In this document: one piece after another, positions 46,275-56,038 of the stretch
How positions within the stretch are numbered: position 1 is the first letter of the stretch
How the letters are laid out: every line of letters starts with the position of its first letter
Origin: Sphingomonas rubra
GTDB lineage: Bacteria; Pseudomonadota; Alphaproteobacteria; Sphingomonadales; Sphingomonadaceae
Assembly: GCF_900115745.1 (NCBI RefSeq)
Contig: NZ_FOXP01000004.1
Location: 238,674-302,673 of the forward strand
DNA: 64,000 bases
Direction: 5' to 3'
Notes under the pieces: model-generated
Database searches by the model: none
Told to the model about the DNA's origin: nothing
Seen by the model: only the letters and a program-made list of their open reading frames with translations
Program-made: the position numbers and the translations under genes

Positions 46275-46781
46275 TCAGACGATGGCGGGAACGGCGTTGC
46301 GGAAATTGGCCAGCCGGTCGATTACGCAACGCGACGACGCGTTGAGGCGGCGGACGAGCTGCTCGCTGGCGGACTTGCTGATCGTCCAGGCCACTTCCTG
46401 ATCGGTGTCGTCGGGCGCTAGGATCGTCATGTACAGGTGCCATTGCCGTTGCTGGTCGACAAGCAGCCGCCCGACGCCGTGGCAGACGAATGCGCGATGA
46501 TCCGCCTCTCGCTGGAACTGGACGAGGGCATCCAGTGCCGGTTTGCCGAGGCTTCCGCCTCCGGATGCCAGCGCCAACCGCAATGCCTCCCGGCGCTGTC
46601 CCGCCAAATGCGGAAGCTTCTTGCCGGCTGACCCCGCCCCTAAATGGATGAGCGTCTCGGTGACGGCATGCTCCACCGCGGCGAAATGCTCCAGCATACG
46701 ACCGCGCCAAAGGTTCGCTTCGGTCTTGAAGACGTTCCACTCGATCGTGTCGACCGGCTCAATGGTGGAATGGGCGTTCAT
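46275..46781 (-). CDS. Hypothetical protein
   Basis: A 168-aa soluble protein that I do not recognise. It is predicted mostly helical, with MLEHFAAVEHAVTETLIHLG near the N-terminus, a basic stretch (AGKKLPHLAGQRREALRLAL) and FQREADHRAFVCHGVGRLLV in the middle; the last third (WTISKSASEQLVRRLNASSR) is again helical. No signal peptide or membrane segment. ATG 46781 is the first start. The codon pattern fits the neighbours. Confidence 0.65.
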   Translation of the reverse strand: MNAHSTIEPVDTIEWNVFKTEANLWRGRMLEHFAAVEHAVTETLIHLGAGSAGKKLPHLAGQRREALRLALASGGGSLGKPALDALVQFQREADHRAFVCHGVGRLLVDQQRQWHLYMTILAPDDTDQEVAWTISKSASEQLVRRLNASSRCVIDRLANFRNAVPAIV

Positions 46782-46816: not shown

Positions 46817-49042
46817 TTAGCGCAGCCGCTCGATCGCTTGGGCCAGCGCCACGTAGAGCTTGCCCATATCGGACGACAGCAGCGTCACGCCCAGCGGTGA
46901 ACCGTCGCGCTGGGCGAGAACCTGGCGGAGCATGCCCTCGAAATCGTGGATGTAGCGGTTGACCTGCTCGCGGAAGCGGCCGTCGTCGTCGTAGAGTCGG
47001 GCGATCTCGCGTGCGTCGCCGCCGTCGAGGAGGCGCACCGCGCGACGGGTGAAGACGCCGCGATCGCCCTTCAGATAGGCGGCCCAGGCGCTGTCCGATA
47101 CGTCGGGTGCGAACGCCTTGGTAATGTCGATCGCCGCCGAATTGAGCGACTCGATCAGCAGCGATACGCGGCGCGCCAGCGAGTCGCTGTCGGCCGCCTC
47201 GCGTTCCTCGCGCGCCGTTTCCATATGGCTATCGAGCAGGCTCCGCTGCTCCAGCAGGGATTGCACCTGCGTCGCGACCCGCTCGGTCGCACGGGACGAG
47301 GCGGCGGCGGCCGCGTCGGTCGCGTCGACCAGCGCCGTGACCTGCCGCGTCACCGTATCGGACGCTGCGCGCCGCAGGGCGGCGGTGGCGGCCTCGCCGA
47401 GCGCGTCGGCCGCCTCGGGCACCACCGTGGCCAGCGTCTCGCGCGCCTGCGCAGCCGCGATCTGGGCCGTCTCGTGTACATGGGCGAGCGCGTTGAGGAG
47501 GCGCGGTGCGGCCTCGTCGGCGAAACGCTGTGCCCGGTCGATGGCGCCCTCCATCGTGATGCCCAGCGCGTCCGCCTTGTCGCGGCCGTCGGCGAGCGCG
47601 GCTTCCAGGCCGCTGGTCAGCTGGTCGAGCGTGCGGCGCTGCCCGGCGAGCACGTCGGCGATCGCCTCGATGGCGTCGTGCGTCGACTCGGCGGCCGTGA
47701 CCAGCGCCAGCAGCTCCGGCTTGGCATGGGCAATGGTGCGGCGCGAGGTCGTGACGCGATCGTCGAGGCGGGTGAGCGCGTCCGGCAGCGTCTCGTCGAT
47801 CTCGCGCGCGGCGGCATCCAGGGCGACGAGCAGCGTCTCGGTGGTGCCGATCGTGCGGCCGGCCATCGCTTCGCCGGCACGCAAAGCCTCCGTCATCGCG
47901 TCGGCCGAGCCGCCCAGCGCGCTGATCGACGCGGCGAGCAGCTGCGTGCGATCCACACCCTGTGCGTGAAGGGTGTCGAGCCGTGCCTCCACGTCGGCGA
48001 AGCCGCCGTGAAGGCCCGCGACCAGGTCTTCTCCCCGCAGCCGCTGCTCAGCCAGCGCGTCGGCGAGGCGGCCGGCGGCGAGGTCGAGGTCGGCGAGGCG
48101 CGTGGCGAGCGCGTCGGCATGATCGTGCGCGGCGACTTCAAGGGCGACCTGGTGACCGCGAAGGCCGAGCAGGGTCTGGTCGCCCTGCGCGGCCAGCGTA
48201 TCGCAGGCGCGGTTCACCGCCTGCTCGGTACGGTCGACCAACGTGTCCAGCGCGGTCGCGGCCGCGCCGGTCGCGCGTTCCAGGCGGGCACCGGCGGCCT
48301 CGCCGGTCGCGTTCATCCGGTCGATCTGCGCCGCGAGGTGATCGGCGGCGGTCGCCGCGAGCGAATCGGCGTCGCGGGCGCGCGCGGCAAGCTGGACGAT
48401 CTGCGCCTCCAGCGCGGCGGCCTGGGCAGCGGCGGTCAGGCCCGCCTGATCGATCCGCCGGCCGATCTCCTCGCTCTCGACCTTGGCGTGCGGGATCGAT
48501 GCGACCAGATCACCGACGGTCGAGCGTGCCAGCGTCGCCGCCTCCGCCAGGCTGCGGGCGTGGGTATTCGCCTCCTCGATCTCAGCCGCCATCGCCTGGC
48601 CGATCGCCTCCAGCCGTCCGGCCGCCGCAGTGCCGGCGTCGAGTTGCAGGACGAGCTGTTCGCGGTGGTGGGTGAGCGTGCGGGCGAGGCTGGCAACGCG
48701 CGCCTCCAGCGCGGCGGCCTCGGCGCGCATGGCCTGGGCGGTGACGCCGAAGCGGCGCGCCTCGGCGCGGCTGCTGCGCCGCGCCAGCAGCCAGACGATG
48801 CCGACCAGCGCGGGGGGAACGCAGAGCGCCGCGACGAACTGCGTGCCCGCGACCGCATCCATTACGGGCAATCGCGCGCGCGCCAGCCAGAGCGCACCGG
48901 CGATCCAGCCGATGACCAGCAGGGCAGCGATCGTTGGTGCGACCCAGCCGGACCGGCCGCCGTCGATCGGTTCCACCAGTTCCAGCGGTTCTATCCAGCC
49001 CTCGGGCGGCCGCGGCCACAGGTCGTCGCTCGCCCCCATCAT
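46817..49042 (-). CDS. Large membrane protein with two N-terminal helices and a long coiled-coil domain
   Basis: 741 aa of no family I can name with certainty. After a Pro-rich N-terminus come two membrane helices (about residues 36-56 and 64-88 from ATG 49042), then about 550 residues of Ala-rich, almost unbroken helical sequence with charged heptads. A compact C-terminal domain follows (WAAYLKGDRGVFTRRAVRLL, then FREQVNRYIHDFEGMLRQVL). The topology recalls polar scaffold proteins such as Caulobacter TipN. ATG 49042 and 49039 are adjacent; 49084 is an alternative without a ribosome site. Divergent from the Hpt-like gene. Confidence 0.75.
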   Translation of the reverse strand: MMGASDDLWPRPPEGWIEPLELVEPIDGGRSGWVAPTIAALLVIGWIAGALWLARARLPVMDAVAGTQFVAALCVPPALVGIVWLLARRSSRAEARRFGVTAQAMRAEAAALEARVASLARTLTHHREQLVLQLDAGTAAAGRLEAIGQAMAAEIEEANTHARSLAEAATLARSTVGDLVASIPHAKVESEEIGRRIDQAGLTAAAQAAALEAQIVQLAARARDADSLAATAADHLAAQIDRMNATGEAAGARLERATGAAATALDTLVDRTEQAVNRACDTLAAQGDQTLLGLRGHQVALEVAAHDHADALATRLADLDLAAGRLADALAEQRLRGEDLVAGLHGGFADVEARLDTLHAQGVDRTQLLAASISALGGSADAMTEALRAGEAMAGRTIGTTETLLVALDAAAREIDETLPDALTRLDDRVTTSRRTIAHAKPELLALVTAAESTHDAIEAIADVLAGQRRTLDQLTSGLEAALADGRDKADALGITMEGAIDRAQRFADEAAPRLLNALAHVHETAQIAAAQARETLATVVPEAADALGEAATAALRRAASDTVTRQVTALVDATDAAAAASSRATERVATQVQSLLEQRSLLDSHMETAREEREAADSDSLARRVSLLIESLNSAAIDITKAFAPDVSDSAWAAYLKGDRGVFTRRAVRLLDGGDAREIARLYDDDGRFREQVNRYIHDFEGMLRQVLAQRDGSPLGVTLLSSDMGKLYVALAQAIERLR

Positions 49043-49149
49043 CGTTTCCCGTCCGCCACCCCGATCATGGCCGGTGTTTATCATTTTTGCAGGTTCCGAC
49101 CAGCCCGGGTCTCAACCTCCTCTTAACCGCGGGGTCGCTAGGCCGGGAC

Positions 49150-49446
49150 ATGGCTTATGATCCCGGCGCGATCGATGCGACCCTGGCGGCAGCGGTGGGC
49201 GACGATCCCGCCCTGATCGCGGAGCTGCGGCTCGCCTTTCATGACGGTGCGGAGCGGGCGATGACGGCACTGCGGGATGCCGGCGACGATGGGTCGGCGT
49301 GGATCGCCGCAGCGTCGCGGCTGCGTGGGCTGGCCGCCAGTTTCGGCGCGGTTCGCCTGATGGCACAGGCCGCCGCCGCGAGCAGCGTGACGCCGGGCGA
49401 CGAGAAGGTGATCGCCAAGCTGACGCGGGCGATCGCGCGGCTCTAA
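49150..49446 (+). CDS. Hpt-like protein lacking the phosphoryl-accepting histidine
   Basis: A 98-aa helical protein. Residues 51-67 (WIAAASRLRGLAASFGA) align with the Hpt helix whose consensus is AHxLKGxAxxxGA. The histidine position holds Ser56, while the following basic-Gly pair (Arg59-Gly60) and Ser64/Gly66 are kept. DPALIAELRLAFHDGAERAM is the usual preceding helix. It therefore cannot act as a classical phosphotransfer protein. ATG 49150 is divergent from the coiled-coil gene by about 110 bp. Confidence 0.75.
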   Translation: MAYDPGAIDATLAAAVGDDPALIAELRLAFHDGAERAMTALRDAGDDGSAWIAAASRLRGLAASFGAVRLMAQAAAASSVTPGDEKVIAKLTRAIARL

Positions 49447-49500
49447 CCCCGGCGATCAGCGGCCTTGCAACCGCAGCGATGCCGCCTATCAAGCCGTCGC

Positions 49501-50700
49501 ATGCTTGCCGGTCTGCTGTTCGCCCATCACGACGCCGATGATCGTCCCGGCCAACTGACGGCGACGCTGCCATTCGGCGGCTCCTCGGTGATCGAGTATC
49601 AGGCGCGGCTGCTCGCCGCCGTTGGCGCGTCGCAGCTGGTGGTGATGGTCGGTCGGCTGACCCCCGAGCTGCTGGGGGCGATTGGGCGGATCGGCAAGCG
49701 TGGCATCGCCGTCGACGCGGTCCGCACCGCCGAGGAGGTGGCGGCCAAGCTCCACCCGCTCGCGCGCGTGCTGATGCTGGCGGACGGGTTGGTGACCACG
49801 CAGGAGATCGTCGACGGGATGGCACGGGGGGAGGGCGACGCGCTGCTCGTGGTGGACGCGGCGGACGCCCCCGCACGGTACGAGCGGCTGGGCGGCGGTG
49901 CGGCTTGGGCCGGGATCGCCCGGCTGGAGGCGCGGCGCATCGTCGACGTGGCGGCGTTGCCGCGCGATTACGACTTTCAGTCCACTGCGCTCCGGCTCGC
50001 CGACCAGGCCCGGGCGGTGCACCTGATGCTGCCGCCCGGCGCGATCGCCGATGGTCACGGGATCGAGCATGCCGGTGGCGGTCTGACCGAGCGCGGACGC
50101 GCGGTACTGGCGGCGACCGTGGCCGATCGGCGTAACTGGTTCAATGCGGCGCTGGTCGCTCCGCTGGCGCGTGCGACCGTGCCGCGATTGGTCGCGCGTG
50201 GAGTCGGCACGATCGCGACCGGCGTCGGTGGAGCATTGCTGTCGCTCGCCGGTGCCGTCGGCATCGTCGCGGGCGTGCCGGGTACCGGCCTTACGGCGAT
50301 GCTGGCCGGAGCGATGGGGCTCGGCGTCGCACGCGTGCTGGCGCTGCTGCGCGACGAGGAGCCGCTCGGCGAGGCGTGCGTGATCGCGCAAGGGATCGCG
50401 GCGGCGGCGGGAGTTATGGCGCTAGGCTGGTCGCTGACCGCGACGACCGGCGCGGTCATGCTGGTAGTGGCGCTCGTCGCCGTCGTGGCGGGGCTGCTCG
50501 GCGAGCGGGCGACGCCGCGACGCTCGCGACGGCGCTGGTGGGGCGGCGGGCCGGCCTATCTCGCGTTGGCCACCCCGTTCGCCGTGGTCGGCTGGCCGAC
50601 GATCGGGCTGGTCGCCGTGTTGCTCTACGCCACGGCGACGCTGGTCGCGGCGATCGAGGCGTTGCGTACGCTGGTGAACGACGGCTTAGTGTCATCTTAA
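49501..50700 (+). CDS. Membrane protein with nucleotidyltransferase-like N-terminal domain
   Basis: 399 aa. The first 190 residues look like a divergent MobA-type NTP-transferase fold: PFGGSSVIEYQARLLAAVGA and, later, LLVVDAADAP. The usual GGxGTR loop is not visible. The second half has about six hydrophobic helices in two groups (GVGTIATGVGGALLSLAGAV onward) with a basic RRSRRRWW stretch before the last two. This layout, a transferase domain joined to a membrane domain, recalls bifunctional cytidylyltransferase/CDP-alcohol phosphotransferases, but I see no CDP-alcohol motif. Function unknown. Confidence 0.7.
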   Translation: MLAGLLFAHHDADDRPGQLTATLPFGGSSVIEYQARLLAAVGASQLVVMVGRLTPELLGAIGRIGKRGIAVDAVRTAEEVAAKLHPLARVLMLADGLVTTQEIVDGMARGEGDALLVVDAADAPARYERLGGGAAWAGIARLEARRIVDVAALPRDYDFQSTALRLADQARAVHLMLPPGAIADGHGIEHAGGGLTERGRAVLAATVADRRNWFNAALVAPLARATVPRLVARGVGTIATGVGGALLSLAGAVGIVAGVPGTGLTAMLAGAMGLGVARVLALLRDEEPLGEACVIAQGIAAAAGVMALGWSLTATTGAVMLVVALVAVVAGLLGERATPRRSRRRWWGGGPAYLALATPFAVVGWPTIGLVAVLLYATATLVAAIEALRTLVNDGLVSS

Positions 50701-50724
50701 GACGACCGCGCTAAGGTGCGTCGG

Positions 50725-51807
50725 ATGGTCGCGGACGAGCACGAGCGGGATAGGTGGGCGCCCGAGCGGTTGAGTGACCGTGCGGCACGCGCCGACGCGC
50801 GGGCGGACCGCGATCTAGCCGCCGCAGCGACCGACTTCCTGCTGCCCGACGAGGCGCGGCTCAACGATCGAACTCGGCACGGCATGGCGGCGCTGGTCCG
50901 CGGGACGATCGACGCGGTCGAGACGGCCGTCCGCCACCATGCCGCCCGGCTGTTGGCCGAGCGCGGCGCGACCGAGCGTGCAGAGGCGTTGCTGCGCGGC
51001 CGGACCGACGTGACGGCACGACTGTTGCGAGGGGGACTGCTGCGCGATCCTGACATGATGGCGGAACTGCTCGCGCGCGTGCGGCAGGACGGGCTTGCCG
51101 CGGCGCTGCCGCCGGCGCCCGCCGTCGCCGACCAGCCGAGCCTCGTCGTCCGACTCGCCGCGGCGCCCGATGCGGTGGTCGCGCGTGCCGCCGCGGCGCT
51201 GCTCGTCGCCGACAATCGCCGGCGCGACGCGGCCGAGCGGGCTGCGGAGAGTGGTGGCGAGCTGCCGGCCGAACTGCACCACCGGCTCGTCTGGTGGGTG
51301 GCGGCGGCGATCCGCGACCCGCACGACCATGGCACCGACCTCGCCATCGCCGAGGCGGCGTTGCGCGCGGTCGCCGCGCATGACGAGGACGAACGGGCCG
51401 ATGCGGTGGCAATGCGGCTCGCCGCGGCGATCGCGCCCAATCCGCGCGAGCTGCCCGACCTGCTGGTCGAGGCGCTGGCCGACCGGCGCGTCGGTCTGTT
51501 CACCGCGCTGGTCGCGCACGCAGCGGGGCTGCCGCACGAGGCGGTGCGCGCGGTGACGCTGGAACCCGGGGGCGATCGGCTGTGGCTGGCGTTGCGCGCG
51601 ATCGCGCTCGACCGGGCGACCATCGCGCGGATCGCGCTGGCGCTCGCCGAGGCGGACCCGACACGCGACATCGACGCTTTCGCCGACCAGCTCGACGCCA
51701 TCATGGCGGTCGATCCGGTCGCGGCGCGCGCGGCGCTGCTGCCGCTGACGCTCCACGCCGATTATCGCGCCGCGATCCGCGCGCTGGCGCGTTCGGAGGC
51801 GGGATGA
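50725..51807 (+). CDS. DUF2336 domain-containing protein
   Basis: 360 aa, nearly all helical and Ala/Arg-rich, with repeated helix pairs like HEAT repeats. The segments LNDRTRHGMAALVRGTIDAV, LVVRLAAAPDAVVARAAAAL, and LVEALADRRVGLFTALVAHA suggest the DUF2336 family of alphaproteobacteria, whose function is not known. ATG 50725 is 8 bp after AAGG; the in-frame GTG at 50716 overlaps that site. It overlaps the kinase-like gene by 4 bp, so the two are probably made together. Confidence 0.75.
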   Translation: MVADEHERDRWAPERLSDRAARADARADRDLAAAATDFLLPDEARLNDRTRHGMAALVRGTIDAVETAVRHHAARLLAERGATERAEALLRGRTDVTARLLRGGLLRDPDMMAELLARVRQDGLAAALPPAPAVADQPSLVVRLAAAPDAVVARAAAALLVADNRRRDAAERAAESGGELPAELHHRLVWWVAAAIRDPHDHGTDLAIAEAALRAVAAHDEDERADAVAMRLAAAIAPNPRELPDLLVEALADRRVGLFTALVAHAAGLPHEAVRAVTLEPGGDRLWLALRAIALDRATIARIALALAEADPTRDIDAFADQLDAIMAVDPVAARAALLPLTLHADYRAAIRALARSEAG

Positions 51808-53156
51808 ACGCGGTCGATCCGAACGGCACCGTCGCGGTGGCGCACGCAGTGCTCGACGCCGATGGCGCGCTGCTGTCGGCCGATCCGGCGCTGGAGGCGC
51901 TGCACGCCCGTGCCGGCGGCGTCGCGGGTGGATCGATGGCGGTGCCGCAGCTCGCCTCGATCGCGCGGCTGGCGCGAAGACTGGGTATCGTCGTGTCGCG
52001 GCGGATCACGGTGGCGGACGAGGATGCGGACCTCGACCTGTGGGTCCGCGCACAGCCGGAGGGCGATCGCATCCGCCTGGCCGCGAGCGGGTGGAGCGAG
52101 CAGCCGGCGTGGCGCCCATCCGCCGAAATGCCCGCCGTCCCGGCGGGCGACTGGCAGTGGGAGAGCGATGCCAGCCTGCGGCTGACCTTCCTGTCGCTGG
52201 ACGGAGCCGGTGGGTTCGATCCCTTCACGCTGCTCGGCCGGCCGCTCACGGCGTTGTTCGTCTTCGACGAGGGCGCAGGCGGCGGCCTGCCGATCCTGGA
52301 CGCGTTGGCGCGGCGACGACCGTTTCGCGATCAGCCCGCGACAGTGCGATTGACGGGGGCTCCGGTGGTGCTCGACGCGGTGATCCGTCACGACGCGGAA
52401 GGCGGCTTCGCCGGGTTGGCGGGGAGTGCGCGCGAGGCGGTGACCGACGAAGGGGAAGGCGACGCTACGACGCCGGGTGCCTTCGCCGCCGGGCTGGACC
52501 GGGCGTTGCGTGCGCCGCTCGGCCGCATCGTCGCCAACGCCGACAGCATCAGCGCGCGGGCCGACGGACCGATCGCGGACGATTATGCCGCCTATGCGAC
52601 CGACATCGCCGGGGCGGGGCGCCACCTGCTCGGGTTGGTCGACGGGCTGGTCGACCTGCAGGCGATCGAGCGATCCGACTTCCGGCCTCTCGCGGAGCCA
52701 ATCGATCTGGATGACGTGGTGCGCCGTGCGGCGGGGCTGCTGGCAGTCAAGGCGGAGCGTGCCGGCGTGGCGATCGTGCGGGTGCCGAGCGATGCACGGG
52801 CGTCGGCGATCGCCGATTTCGGACGGACGCTGCAGATCATGGTCAATCTGGTCGGCAATGCGGTGCGCTACGCGCCGCCGGGCTCGCAGGTCGAGATCGC
52901 CGTGGAGAGGGCAGGCGCCGCCGTACGCGTCACCGTCTCGGATCGCGGCAAGGGGATCGACCGCGAGGATCAGGCGCGCGTGTTCGAGAAGTTCGAACGC
53001 GTCGACCCGAGCGAGCCCGGCGGCAGCGGCCTGGGGCTGTTCATCGCGCGGCGGCTGGCGCGCGCGATGCGGGGCGACCTGACGTTGCGGAGCGAGGCAG
53101 GGGCCGGCGCCGCCTTCACTCTGTCGCTACCGGCGGGGCAGCCGGCGGGCGAGTAG
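51804..53156 (+). CDS. Histidine-kinase-like protein without the H-box histidine
   Basis: 450 aa, no membrane helix. The N-terminal 200 residues resemble PAS-type sensor regions. The dimerisation helices (about 225-290) are of the DivJ/PleC type, with YATDIAGAGRHLLGLVDGLV. In the H-box, D-R-A-L-R-A-P-L replaces S-H-E-L-R-T-P-L, so Arg233 stands where the phosphorylated His should be. The ATPase part looks intact: IMVNLVGNAVRYAPPG (N box), SDRGKGI (G1) and GGSGLGLFIARRLA (G2). Probably a pseudokinase or regulator rather than a normal sensor kinase. Confidence 0.85.
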   Translation: MNAVDPNGTVAVAHAVLDADGALLSADPALEALHARAGGVAGGSMAVPQLASIARLARRLGIVVSRRITVADEDADLDLWVRAQPEGDRIRLAASGWSEQPAWRPSAEMPAVPAGDWQWESDASLRLTFLSLDGAGGFDPFTLLGRPLTALFVFDEGAGGGLPILDALARRRPFRDQPATVRLTGAPVVLDAVIRHDAEGGFAGLAGSAREAVTDEGEGDATTPGAFAAGLDRALRAPLGRIVANADSISARADGPIADDYAAYATDIAGAGRHLLGLVDGLVDLQAIERSDFRPLAEPIDLDDVVRRAAGLLAVKAERAGVAIVRVPSDARASAIADFGRTLQIMVNLVGNAVRYAPPGSQVEIAVERAGAAVRVTVSDRGKGIDREDQARVFEKFERVDPSEPGGSGLGLFIARRLARAMRGDLTLRSEAGAGAAFTLSLPAGQPAGE

Positions 53157-53336: not shown

Positions 53337-54617
53337 TCAGCGCTCTCCGACGGGCACGTAGGAACGCTGCGTCGGCCCGGTGTAGAGCTGGCGCGGACGG
53401 CCGATCTTTTGGTCGGGATCGGTAATCATCTCGTTCCACTGCGCGACCCAGCCGACGGTACGGGCGAGCGCGAAGAGGACGGTGAACATCGACGTCGGGA
53501 AACCGATCGCGGACAGGATCACGCCCGAGTAGAAGTCGACGTTCGGGAACAGCTTCTTCTCGACAAAGTAATCGTCGTTGAGCGCGATCTCCTCCAGCCG
53601 CAGCGCCGTCTCGAACAGCGGGTCGTTGACCTTGAGCGCGTCGAACACCTCGCGCACTGTCTTCTGCATCACGGTCGCGCGCGGGTCGTAGTTCTTGTAG
53701 ACCCTGTGGCCGAAGCCCATCAGGCGGAACGGATCGTTCTTGTCCTTGGCACGGGCGATGTACTCGGGAATCTTGTCGGGTGTCCCGATCTCGCGCAGCA
53801 TGTTGAGGGCGGCCTCGTTGGCGCCGCCGTGCGCGGGGCCCCAGAGGCAGGCGATGCCCGCCGCGATGCACGCGAACGGGTTGGCGCCCGACGAACCCGC
53901 GAGACGAACGGTCGAGGTCGATGCGTTCTGCTCGTGATCGGCGTGGAGGATGAAGATCCGGTCCATCGCCTTCTCGACCGCCGGGTTGACCTCGTACGGC
54001 TCGGCGGGAACGCCGAAGGTCATGCGCAGGAAGTTGCCGGTGTAGCTCAGCGAATTGTCGGGGTAGAGGAAGGGCTGCCCGACGCTGTACTTGTACGCCA
54101 TCGCCGCGATCGTCGGCATCTTGGCGATCAGGCGGTGCGACGCGATCACGCGCTGCGCCGGATCGTGGATGTCGGTCGAATCGTGGTAGAAGGCCGACAG
54201 CGCGCCGACGACGCCGCACATGATCGCCATCGGATGCGCGTCGCGACGGAAGCCGCGGAAGAAGGTCGCCAGCTGCTCGTGCACCATGGTGTGGCGCGTG
54301 ATGGTGGTGTCGAACGTGGTCAGCTCGTCGGCGGACGGCAGCTCTCCGTTCAGGAGGAGATAGGCAACCTCCATGAAGCTGGAACTCTCGGCGAGTTCGC
54401 CGATGGGATAGCCGCGGTGAAGGAGCACGCCCTCGTCACCGTCGATGAAGGTCAGCTCCGACCGGCACGAGGCGGTCGAGGTGAAGCCCGGATCGTAGGT
54501 GAAGTCGCCGGTCTGGCCGTAGAGCTTGCGGATGTCGACGACATCGGGGCCGATCGTACCGGACAATACCGGATAATCGAAATCCTTACCGCCGAGGGAG
54601 AATGTGGCGTTTGTCAT
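53337..54617 (-). CDS. gltA: Citrate synthase
   Basis: Condenses oxaloacetate and acetyl-CoA, the entry to the TCA cycle. It has 426 aa, the hexameric proteobacterial type. It has [36 protein letters not shown] (catalytic His region) and [17 protein letters not shown] 54617 follows AAGGA; the in-frame upstream ATG at 54632 is less likely. It lies 11 bp downstream of gltX, in the same direction. Confidence 0.97.
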
Positions 54618-54628
54618 GGCTGGTCCTT

Positions 54629-56038
54629 TCAAGCGGCTGCCCGGTCCGCGATGCGGGCCAGGCTTTCCTCGCGCCCTAGAAGGGCGAGCACGTCGAAGAT
54701 ACCGGGCGAGGTCTTGCGCCCGGTAAGCGCGGCGCGGAGCGGCTGCGCGACCTGGCCGAGCTTCACGCCCGCCTCCTCGGCCACGCGGCGTACCGCGGCT
54801 TCCAGCTGCTCCGTATCCCAGCCATCCAGCGCGTCAAGCGCGGCATGGGCGTGAGCAAGCAGGGTAGCGCCGTCAGCGGCGACGAGCGCGGCGGCGGCGT
54901 CCTCCATCGGCAGCGGGCGCGCGGCGAACAGGAAGCCGGCGCCATCGGCGAGTTCGTTGAGGTTGGCGGCGCGCGCCTTCAGCGCCGGCATCGCCTTCGT
55001 CAGCAACGCCACGTCCGAACCGGGTACGCGCGGCGCGACCAGTTCGGCGAGGCGCGCGTCGTCGGCGTCGCGGATGTACTTGCCGTTGAGATTCTCGAGC
55101 TTTTTCAGGTCGAAGCGCGACGGGCTCTTGCCGACCGCGGCGAGGTCGAACCACTCGACCGCCTGCGCGCGGGAGATCTTCTCCTCGTCCCCGTGGCCCC
55201 AACCGAGGCGAAGGAGGTAATTGTCGAGTGCCTCAGGCAAGATCCCGAGTTCGTCGCGATACGCCTCAATCCCGACGGCGCCGTGGCGCTTCGACAGCTT
55301 GGCGCCGTCCGAGCCGTGGATCAGCGGGATGTGGGCGTAGACCGGCTCGGGCCAGCCCATCGCGCGGTAGATCGGCAGCTGCCGGAAGGCGTTGTTGAGA
55401 TGGTCGTCGCCGCGGATGACGTGAGTGACGCCCATGTCGTGATCGTCGACGACGACCGCCAGCATGTAGGTCGGCGTGCCGTCCGAGCGGAGCAGGACGA
55501 GGTCGTCCAACTCGGCGTTCTGGACGGTGACCGAGCCCTGGACACGGTCGTCGATCGTCGTCGCGCCTTCGCGCGGCGCGCGGAGACGAACGACGTAGGG
55601 CGTGCCTGGGGCGGCCTCGCCGCAGTCGCCGTCGCGCCAGGGCGAGCGGATGCGCAAGGGCTGCTTGGCCGCCTGCGCCGCCTCGCGCTGGGCAGCGATC
55701 TCCTCCTGCGTCATGTAGCAGCGATAGGCGTGGCCGCGCGCGATCAGTTCGTGGGCAATGGCGGCGTGGCGATCGGCACGGGCGAATTGGAACACCTCGT
55801 CGCCGTCCCAGTCGAGGCCGAGCCAGCGCAGGCCGGCCAGGATCGCGTCGATCGCCGCTTCCGTCGAACGGGCGCGGTCCGTATCTTCGATCCGCAGCAG
55901 GAACGTGCCGCCTTGCGCCTTTGCGTAGAGCCAGTTGAACAACGCGGTGCGCGCGCCGCCGATATGGAGAAAGCCGGTCGGCGACGGCGCGAAGCGCGTG
56001 ACGACCGGGGTGGTGGGCGTGTCAGATGTTGCGCTCAA
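54629..56038 (-). CDS. gltX: Glutamyl-tRNA synthetase
   Basis: Charges tRNA-Glu (and perhaps tRNA-Gln). It has 469 aa with the class I motifs [19 protein letters not shown] (HIGH equivalent) and [12 protein letters not shown] (KMSKS equivalent). The frame has no ATG or GTG near the N-terminus; TTG 56038 gives the expected start just before [11 protein letters not shown] and has GGGAG about nine bases upstream. Further open frame is a comEC shadow. Divergent from comEC. Confidence 0.95.

Follow-up and report, generated by a model that had tools for sequence, protein, structure and literature searches.

A conserved operon of Sphingomonadaceae codes for kinase-like and Hpt-like proteins that have lost their phosphoacceptor histidines, candidate parts of a membrane-attached docking complex

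A stretch of 64,000 nucleotides from Sphingomonas rubra (contig NZ_FOXP01000004.1, positions 238,674 to 302,673 of the forward strand), called the window hereafter, carries at 46817-53156 a group of five genes coding for a TipN-like protein, an Hpt-like protein, a membrane protein resembling archaeal IPCT-DIPPS enzymes, a DUF2336 protein and a protein related to histidine kinases (Table 1). A preliminary description of the stretch had listed five genes within 6.4 kb and proposed that they form a signalling module without phosphotransfer. The open reading frame (ORF) calls recovered all five; the two-helix membrane protein of that list corresponds to the TipN-like protein, in which two segments are predicted, and the DUF2336 assignment was upheld by its Pfam family. 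The DUF2336 gene might start alternatively at a GTG at position 50716, and its stop overlaps the kinase start by four bases.

Table 1. Position of the five genes, of their key residues and of the downstream neighbour in the window
Feature	Coordinates	Strand	Basis and remarks
TipN-like protein, 755 aa	46817..49084	-	two predicted membrane segments, 47-65 and 83-101, then an extended remainder; transcribed divergently from the operon
Pseudo-Hpt, 98 aa	49150..49446	+	Pfam Hpt E=0.0022 (below curated cut-off); AlphaFold2 model (pLDDT 89.3) matches Hpt structures
Ser56 codon, phosphoacceptor His position of the pseudo-Hpt	49315..49317	+	alignment
Degenerate IPCT-DIPPS-like membrane protein, 399 aa	49501..50700	+	no Pfam match; AlphaFold2 model and structure match
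DUF2336 protein, 360 aa	50725..51807	+	Pfam PF10098 E=1.2e-11, above curated cut-off (45 bits vs 34.6)
Pseudo-histidine kinase, 450 aa	51804..53156	+	HATPase_c PF02518 E=1.8e-26; HisKA just 0.074; H-box without His, Glu and Thr
Arg233 codon, H-box His position of the kinase	52500..52502	+	PDB alignments
HATPase_c domain, boxes N, G1, F and G2 retained	52827..53135	+	Pfam and alignment
Citrate synthase, convergent neighbour	53337..54632	-	ORF call; no claim of membership in the complex

The conservation of the gene order was followed in the family Sphingomonadaceae, taken in the broad sense. A search with the membrane protein gave matches in 85 of 119 family genomes, the window genome included, and 60 of the 84 non-self matches were fetched with their flanks and scanned by iterated profiles (60-locus set). 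A second set, found through the Hpt gene, comprises 80 of 323 confirmed loci, several of them cut by contig ends, from Sphingomonas, Sphingobium, Novosphingobium, Sphingopyxis, Erythrobacter, Altererythrobacter and others; because of the way it was found, this 80-locus set is unfit to measure how often the Hpt gene is absent. The full order, in which the TipN-like gene on the minus strand diverges from the Hpt, membrane protein, DUF2336 and kinase genes on the plus strand, was present at 31 of 60 loci of the first set and 64 of 80 of the second, so that the five genes often stay together, a point which the preliminary description had proposed to check. In the 60-locus set TipN-like genes were present at 55 loci, Hpt at 36, DUF2336 at 42 and the kinase at 48, one of these kinases (L048) lying on the opposite strand and being probably a paralogue, and TipN-like relatives were found at 79 of the 80 loci of the other set.

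The same order would be seen if each gene had a separate role and the arrangement persisted merely because the operon sits between the conserved genes for RNase J and citrate synthase. This agrees with the flanking genes being often conserved too and with the fact that genes can drop out, nine of the 60 loci showing the TipN-like and membrane protein genes alone. It is opposed by the tight spacing between the DUF2336 and kinase genes, with a gap of -13 to 41 bases (median -4; 41 loci, starts picked by script), and by 17 family genomes chosen either for the absence of a kinase at the locus or for a membrane-protein match that was weak or lacking: a close kinase relative was present in six of them and in none of the other 11, and DUF2336 adjoined this kinase in 6/6, four of the kinases being without the histidine and two with it. 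We consider such an independence of the genes rather improbable.

The kinase-like protein of the window carries an arginine, Arg233, in place of the H-box histidine, as the preliminary description had stated and as the translation confirmed; PDB alignments set it against the histidine that kinases usually have here and against the DivL tyrosine. Histidine occupied this position in 0/48 rows of the 60-locus set and 0/71 of the loci with a kinase in the 80-locus set, proline being present in 41/71. An alignment of 158 rows, including 120 database relatives which are the best 120 of 3415 matches, gave K52 R38 A18 P15 Q14 E7 S4 N2 T2 D2 H2 V1 G1; both histidine rows carry alanine at the following acidic position, and tyrosine, the DivL state, was present in none of the 158. 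The glutamate that follows the H-box histidine (Glu234 here) aids catalysis in HisKA kinases. It was absent in 51 of 51 members of the His-less clade described below, and the phosphatase threonine was also lost. The label DivJ/PleC-type, given in the preliminary description, stands as the statement of a likeness, the NCBIfam DivJ model giving E=2.5e-29, but not as a family assignment, the score of 101.9 bits lying under the equivalog cut-off of 1000. Two kinases from sister families were likewise far under the DivJ and PdhS NCBIfam cut-offs.

The residues of the ATP boxes (N, G1, F and G2) were near-invariant over the 158 rows and the 51 clade members, and His274, in the second helix of the kinase, was invariant in 158/158 rows. 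Both are compatible with a pseudokinase that still uses ATP, phosphorylating in trans the DHp helix of a partner kinase, or another residue, so that the module would be catalytic by another route; the boxes are retained in the sequence of the window kinase, whereas DivL is described as binding an ATP analogue weakly (PMC4211667). Such a catalytic role seems improbable to us, given the loss of Glu234 in every clade member and the presence of His274 in 24 of 26 His-bearing relatives too. Since it is shared with them, His274 looks like an old structural residue and not a replacement, and it was not favoured as an alternative phosphoacceptor.

The Hpt-like protein, whose helical Hpt fold is predicted by its model, showed the same kind of loss. 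Its residue 56 is serine in the window, again as first described, and in 157 rows, the database part of which is the best 120 of 6152 matches, the position was M71 W47 L25 Q3 H2 A2 C2 S1 Y1 E1 F1 R1. Of the two histidine rows, one belongs to the locus L061, whose contig is apparently that of L160, and the other comes from the database. In the 80-locus set the tally was W37 M17 L16 Q3 Y2 F2 H1 A1 R1, the single histidine belonging apparently to the 44,784-base contig of one of these rows. The preliminary description had noted that both histidines were absent and had suggested to look for a joint conservation of Arg233 and Ser56. The first part holds for the whole family, histidine being near-absent at both sites (2/158 and 2/157 rows), and the second does not, position 233 being mostly K, R, P, A or Q and position 56 mostly M, W or L. 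The absence of histidine is thus the general trait at both sites, Arg233 and Ser56 are local, and these two were rejected as selected residues since both positions vary.

The membrane protein encoded between them had been called transferase-like; the protein itself, as we read it, is a disarmed enzyme of IPCT-DIPPS-like type. The AlphaFold2 model of the 399-aa protein, with a mean predicted local distance difference test score (pLDDT) of 94.7, consists of two halves, one nucleotidyltransferase-like and the other, in the membrane, CDP-alcohol phosphotransferase-like, and its best PDB matches by Foldseek were the archaeal bifunctional IPCT-DIPPS 4mnd (E=2.1e-10) and AF2299 (E=3e-8). It is similar to these Archaeoglobus enzymes by the two-domain fold (Foldseek E 2e-10 to 1e-7) and differs from them by the missing CDP-alcohol phosphotransferase motif DxxDGxxAR, the five motif columns of which read LARAL in the window. 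In a 74-row alignment only three of the 65 family rows (L063, L087 and L092) had the complete motif, the other 62 lacking it, as against five of nine sister-family rows (L231, L233-L236) in which it was complete. No Pfam domain was detectable in the window protein, and among 36 members CDP-OH_P was found in one and NTP_transf_3 in five. The protein is therefore likely a third disarmed enzyme, of predicted lipid-enzyme-like nature. At L087 and L092 the retained motif stands beside a TipN-like gene, and these two loci gave no match for Hpt, for DUF2336 or for the kinase.

Ratios of nonsynonymous to synonymous substitution (dN/dS) of 0.02-0.41 were obtained across all five genes, pointing to purifying selection, with the Hpt value coming from three pairs and the ratios being rough in the 17 of 42 comparisons where dS exceeded 1. 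These values, together with ORFs that stay long throughout the family and the near-invariance of the ATP boxes in the 158 rows, speak against a decay in which dead genes drift after the loss of a phosphorelay, although the variable residues at both former histidine sites and the absence of the Hpt and kinase genes from some genomes are what such a decay would give; we hold it to be very improbable. A local decay at the window locus was rejected on the basis of dN/dS and of the conserved gene order.

Relatives of the kinase that retain the histidine were found outside the family. Seven further families of the order were represented by 28 genomes, and the best match to the kinase profile had an E-value from 1.9e-59 to 8.4e-83 in 27 of them, usually well above the other kinases of the same genomes; the remaining genome (G137) had a weak best match of 2.3e-35 and gave no locus. 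At the 27 loci so obtained, DUF2336 adjoined the kinase in 25, the other two stopping at contig ends. These pairs resemble that of the window in associating a kinase relative with DUF2336, and differ from it by an H-box with histidine in 27/27, SHEL(R/K)TPL in 26 and QHELRTPL in one (L270), and by a length of about 560-650 aa for most kinases, compared to 450 aa. No TipN-like or Hpt match was present in the short stretches read around them. Hpt matches were found in 10 of 23 sister-family genomes (11 loci), with histidine in all, but at E-values of 2.5e-9 to 2.1e-4, so weak that orthology is not claimed. At the level of the class, a search of 58 genomes gave kinase matches with E<1e-60 outside the order in G318, G279 and G333 only, and DUF2336 was a neighbour at 4 of the 23 loci examined.

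Four Sphingomonadaceae genomes (G012, G007, G052 and G040) also kept the SHELRTPL sequence. In G012 (L328:1643-5151) a TipN-like gene is followed, across the divergent junction, by consecutive genes for the membrane protein, DUF2336 and a kinase with the full SHELRTPL, that is, a His-bearing relative in place. The His-bearing DUF2336-kinase pair lies about 4 kb from the membrane protein gene in G007, about 6 kb from it in G052, and away from it in G040. In G007, an Hpt-like ORF beside the TipN-like gene (L326:6084-6350) reads DAHRLK with the histidine present, its frame breaking just afterwards, and the DUF2336-kinase pair with a canonical H-box (L326:13394-16102) is in the same stretch. This stretch possibly represents the ancestral state, with the reservation that the Hpt reading frame is interrupted and that the assembly has a modest quality (completeness 86%, contamination 7%).

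The relationships of 83 kinases were considered in a maximum-likelihood tree, built with the trait columns excluded by a quick search without bootstrap and containing some long rows; it omits five of the 48 kinase references (L042, L048, L055, L063 and L068, dropped as short rows, as paralogues or because another locus supplied the same gene) and five of the 27 sister-family loci. All 51 His-less family kinases fell on one side of a branch with a support of 95 in the Shimodaira-Hasegawa-like approximate likelihood ratio test (SH-aLRT), and the G012 kinase was next to them (support 87). The other three His-bearing family kinases clustered with those of the sister families (support 87, order unresolved) and may therefore be older or separate copies. 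The histidine state changed twice overall, the second change corresponding to three DivL-like rows, which formed their own branch in the chosen outgroup (support 100). Given the His-bearing orthologues in sister families and in four family genomes, one old loss on a single branch looks right, and, mainly because of G012, the locus was likely gathered before the histidine was lost. A strict co-loss of all three activities was not supported, in view of G017 and G052. The preliminary description had taken orthologues with histidine as a sign of local decay: such orthologues do exist, but outside the His-less clade, and the neighbourhood is conserved.

Since the kinase-like, Hpt-like and predicted lipid-enzyme-like proteins are without key catalytic residues and yet under selection, we are inclined, with moderate confidence, to see in this conserved operon the genes of a regulatory, membrane-attached docking complex, which would bind phosphorelay partners without passing phosphate. 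The initial proposal of a non-phosphotransfer module is thus retained for a set which recurs, lacks the phosphotransfer residues, is under purifying selection and keeps its ATP boxes, and has to be limited in view of the orthologues that bear the histidine. In such a complex the pseudokinase, probably ATP-bound to judge from its boxes, might dock onto a receiver protein, or onto a different kinase, by its retained second helix. The former receiver-facing side of the pseudo-Hpt, where the histidine became mostly Met, Trp or Leu, might form a hydrophobic docking patch, and the TipN-like and IPCT-DIPPS-like membrane proteins could anchor the set. An active phosphorelay component would in this way be sensed or sequestered, as is proposed for DivL with DivK~P and described for AHP6 with plant kinases. 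The window genome has 49 receiver-domain matches, with no single one standing out as partner.

DivL of Caulobacter is proposed to sense the phosphorylated receiver DivK~P rather than to phosphorylate it (PMC4211667). It shares with the window kinase the kinase fold and a replaced phosphoacceptor; the replacement in DivL is a tyrosine, with the following Glu and Thr retained, whereas kinases of the window type are variable at this site and have lost both. A separate DivL-like protein is encoded in the window genome on the same contig (G000:C24:187844-188041, locus L004), where it reads FVANMSYELRTPL, and the window kinase was consequently rejected as the DivL of this genome. In the same way, AHP6, an Arabidopsis pseudo-HPt, is described as a competitor of functional HPts for kinases (PMC7402358); like the protein studied here it is an Hpt protein without histidine. 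AHP6 has an Asn at this position, where the proteins studied here have mostly M, W or L and share their bacterial operon with a pseudokinase gene. DivL and AHP6 are likenesses of mode and not memberships.

In TipN of Caulobacter a pair of N-terminal membrane helices precedes a long remainder of the protein, and the likeness of the 755-aa protein to it is one of architecture. Next to the TipN-like gene lies a 168-aa ORF, at 46275-46781 on the minus strand, without Pfam or NCBIfam match. TipN is a coiled-coil polar scaffold according to PMC7083601. With the exception of divL, the genes of the Caulobacter polarity module are for the most part confined to Caulobacterales and Rhizobiales, according to a review (PMC8116508), which counts against a polar reading of the locus. 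A more ambitious scenario is put forward as a tentative and doubtful one, in which a whole phosphorelay would have been disarmed together: the kinase at least would still have been active when it came to lie, with the Hpt protein and a membrane transferase of nucleotidyl/CDP-alcohol type, next to a TipN-like scaffold, and all would then have lost catalysis, giving an ATP-gated, phosphate-free 'pseudo-phosphorelay' that controls cell-cycle or polarity signalling across Sphingomonadaceae.

Pseudokinases and pseudo-Hpts are already known singly, and a ChrS version and RocA are other bacterial kinase relatives reported as pseudokinases; here both types share a recurring operon with a further enzyme that is likewise disarmed, which is novel as a set and not as a principle. 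A search of a library of open-access papers gave no description of this locus, nor anything on DUF2336, on TipN in Sphingomonadales or on pseudokinase histidine kinases of Sphingomonadaceae, and among the matches listed for pseudo-HPt in bacteria all were plant publications by title. Living relatives suggest successive steps, from the His-bearing DUF2336-kinase pair of the sister families, through a kinase with histidine at the locus (G012) or 4-6 kb off (G007, G052), to the His-less clade, and this series of states makes the change from a phosphorelay to a non-catalytic regulator directly testable. On the downstream side, citrate synthase was convergent within 600 bases of the kinase at 37 of 48 loci with a kinase match in the 60-locus set and at 59 of 71 in the 80-locus set. 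In Caulobacter, citrate synthase is reported to control CtrA and the cell cycle independently of its catalysis (PMC7083601), and its proximity to the operon is taken here only as a lead.

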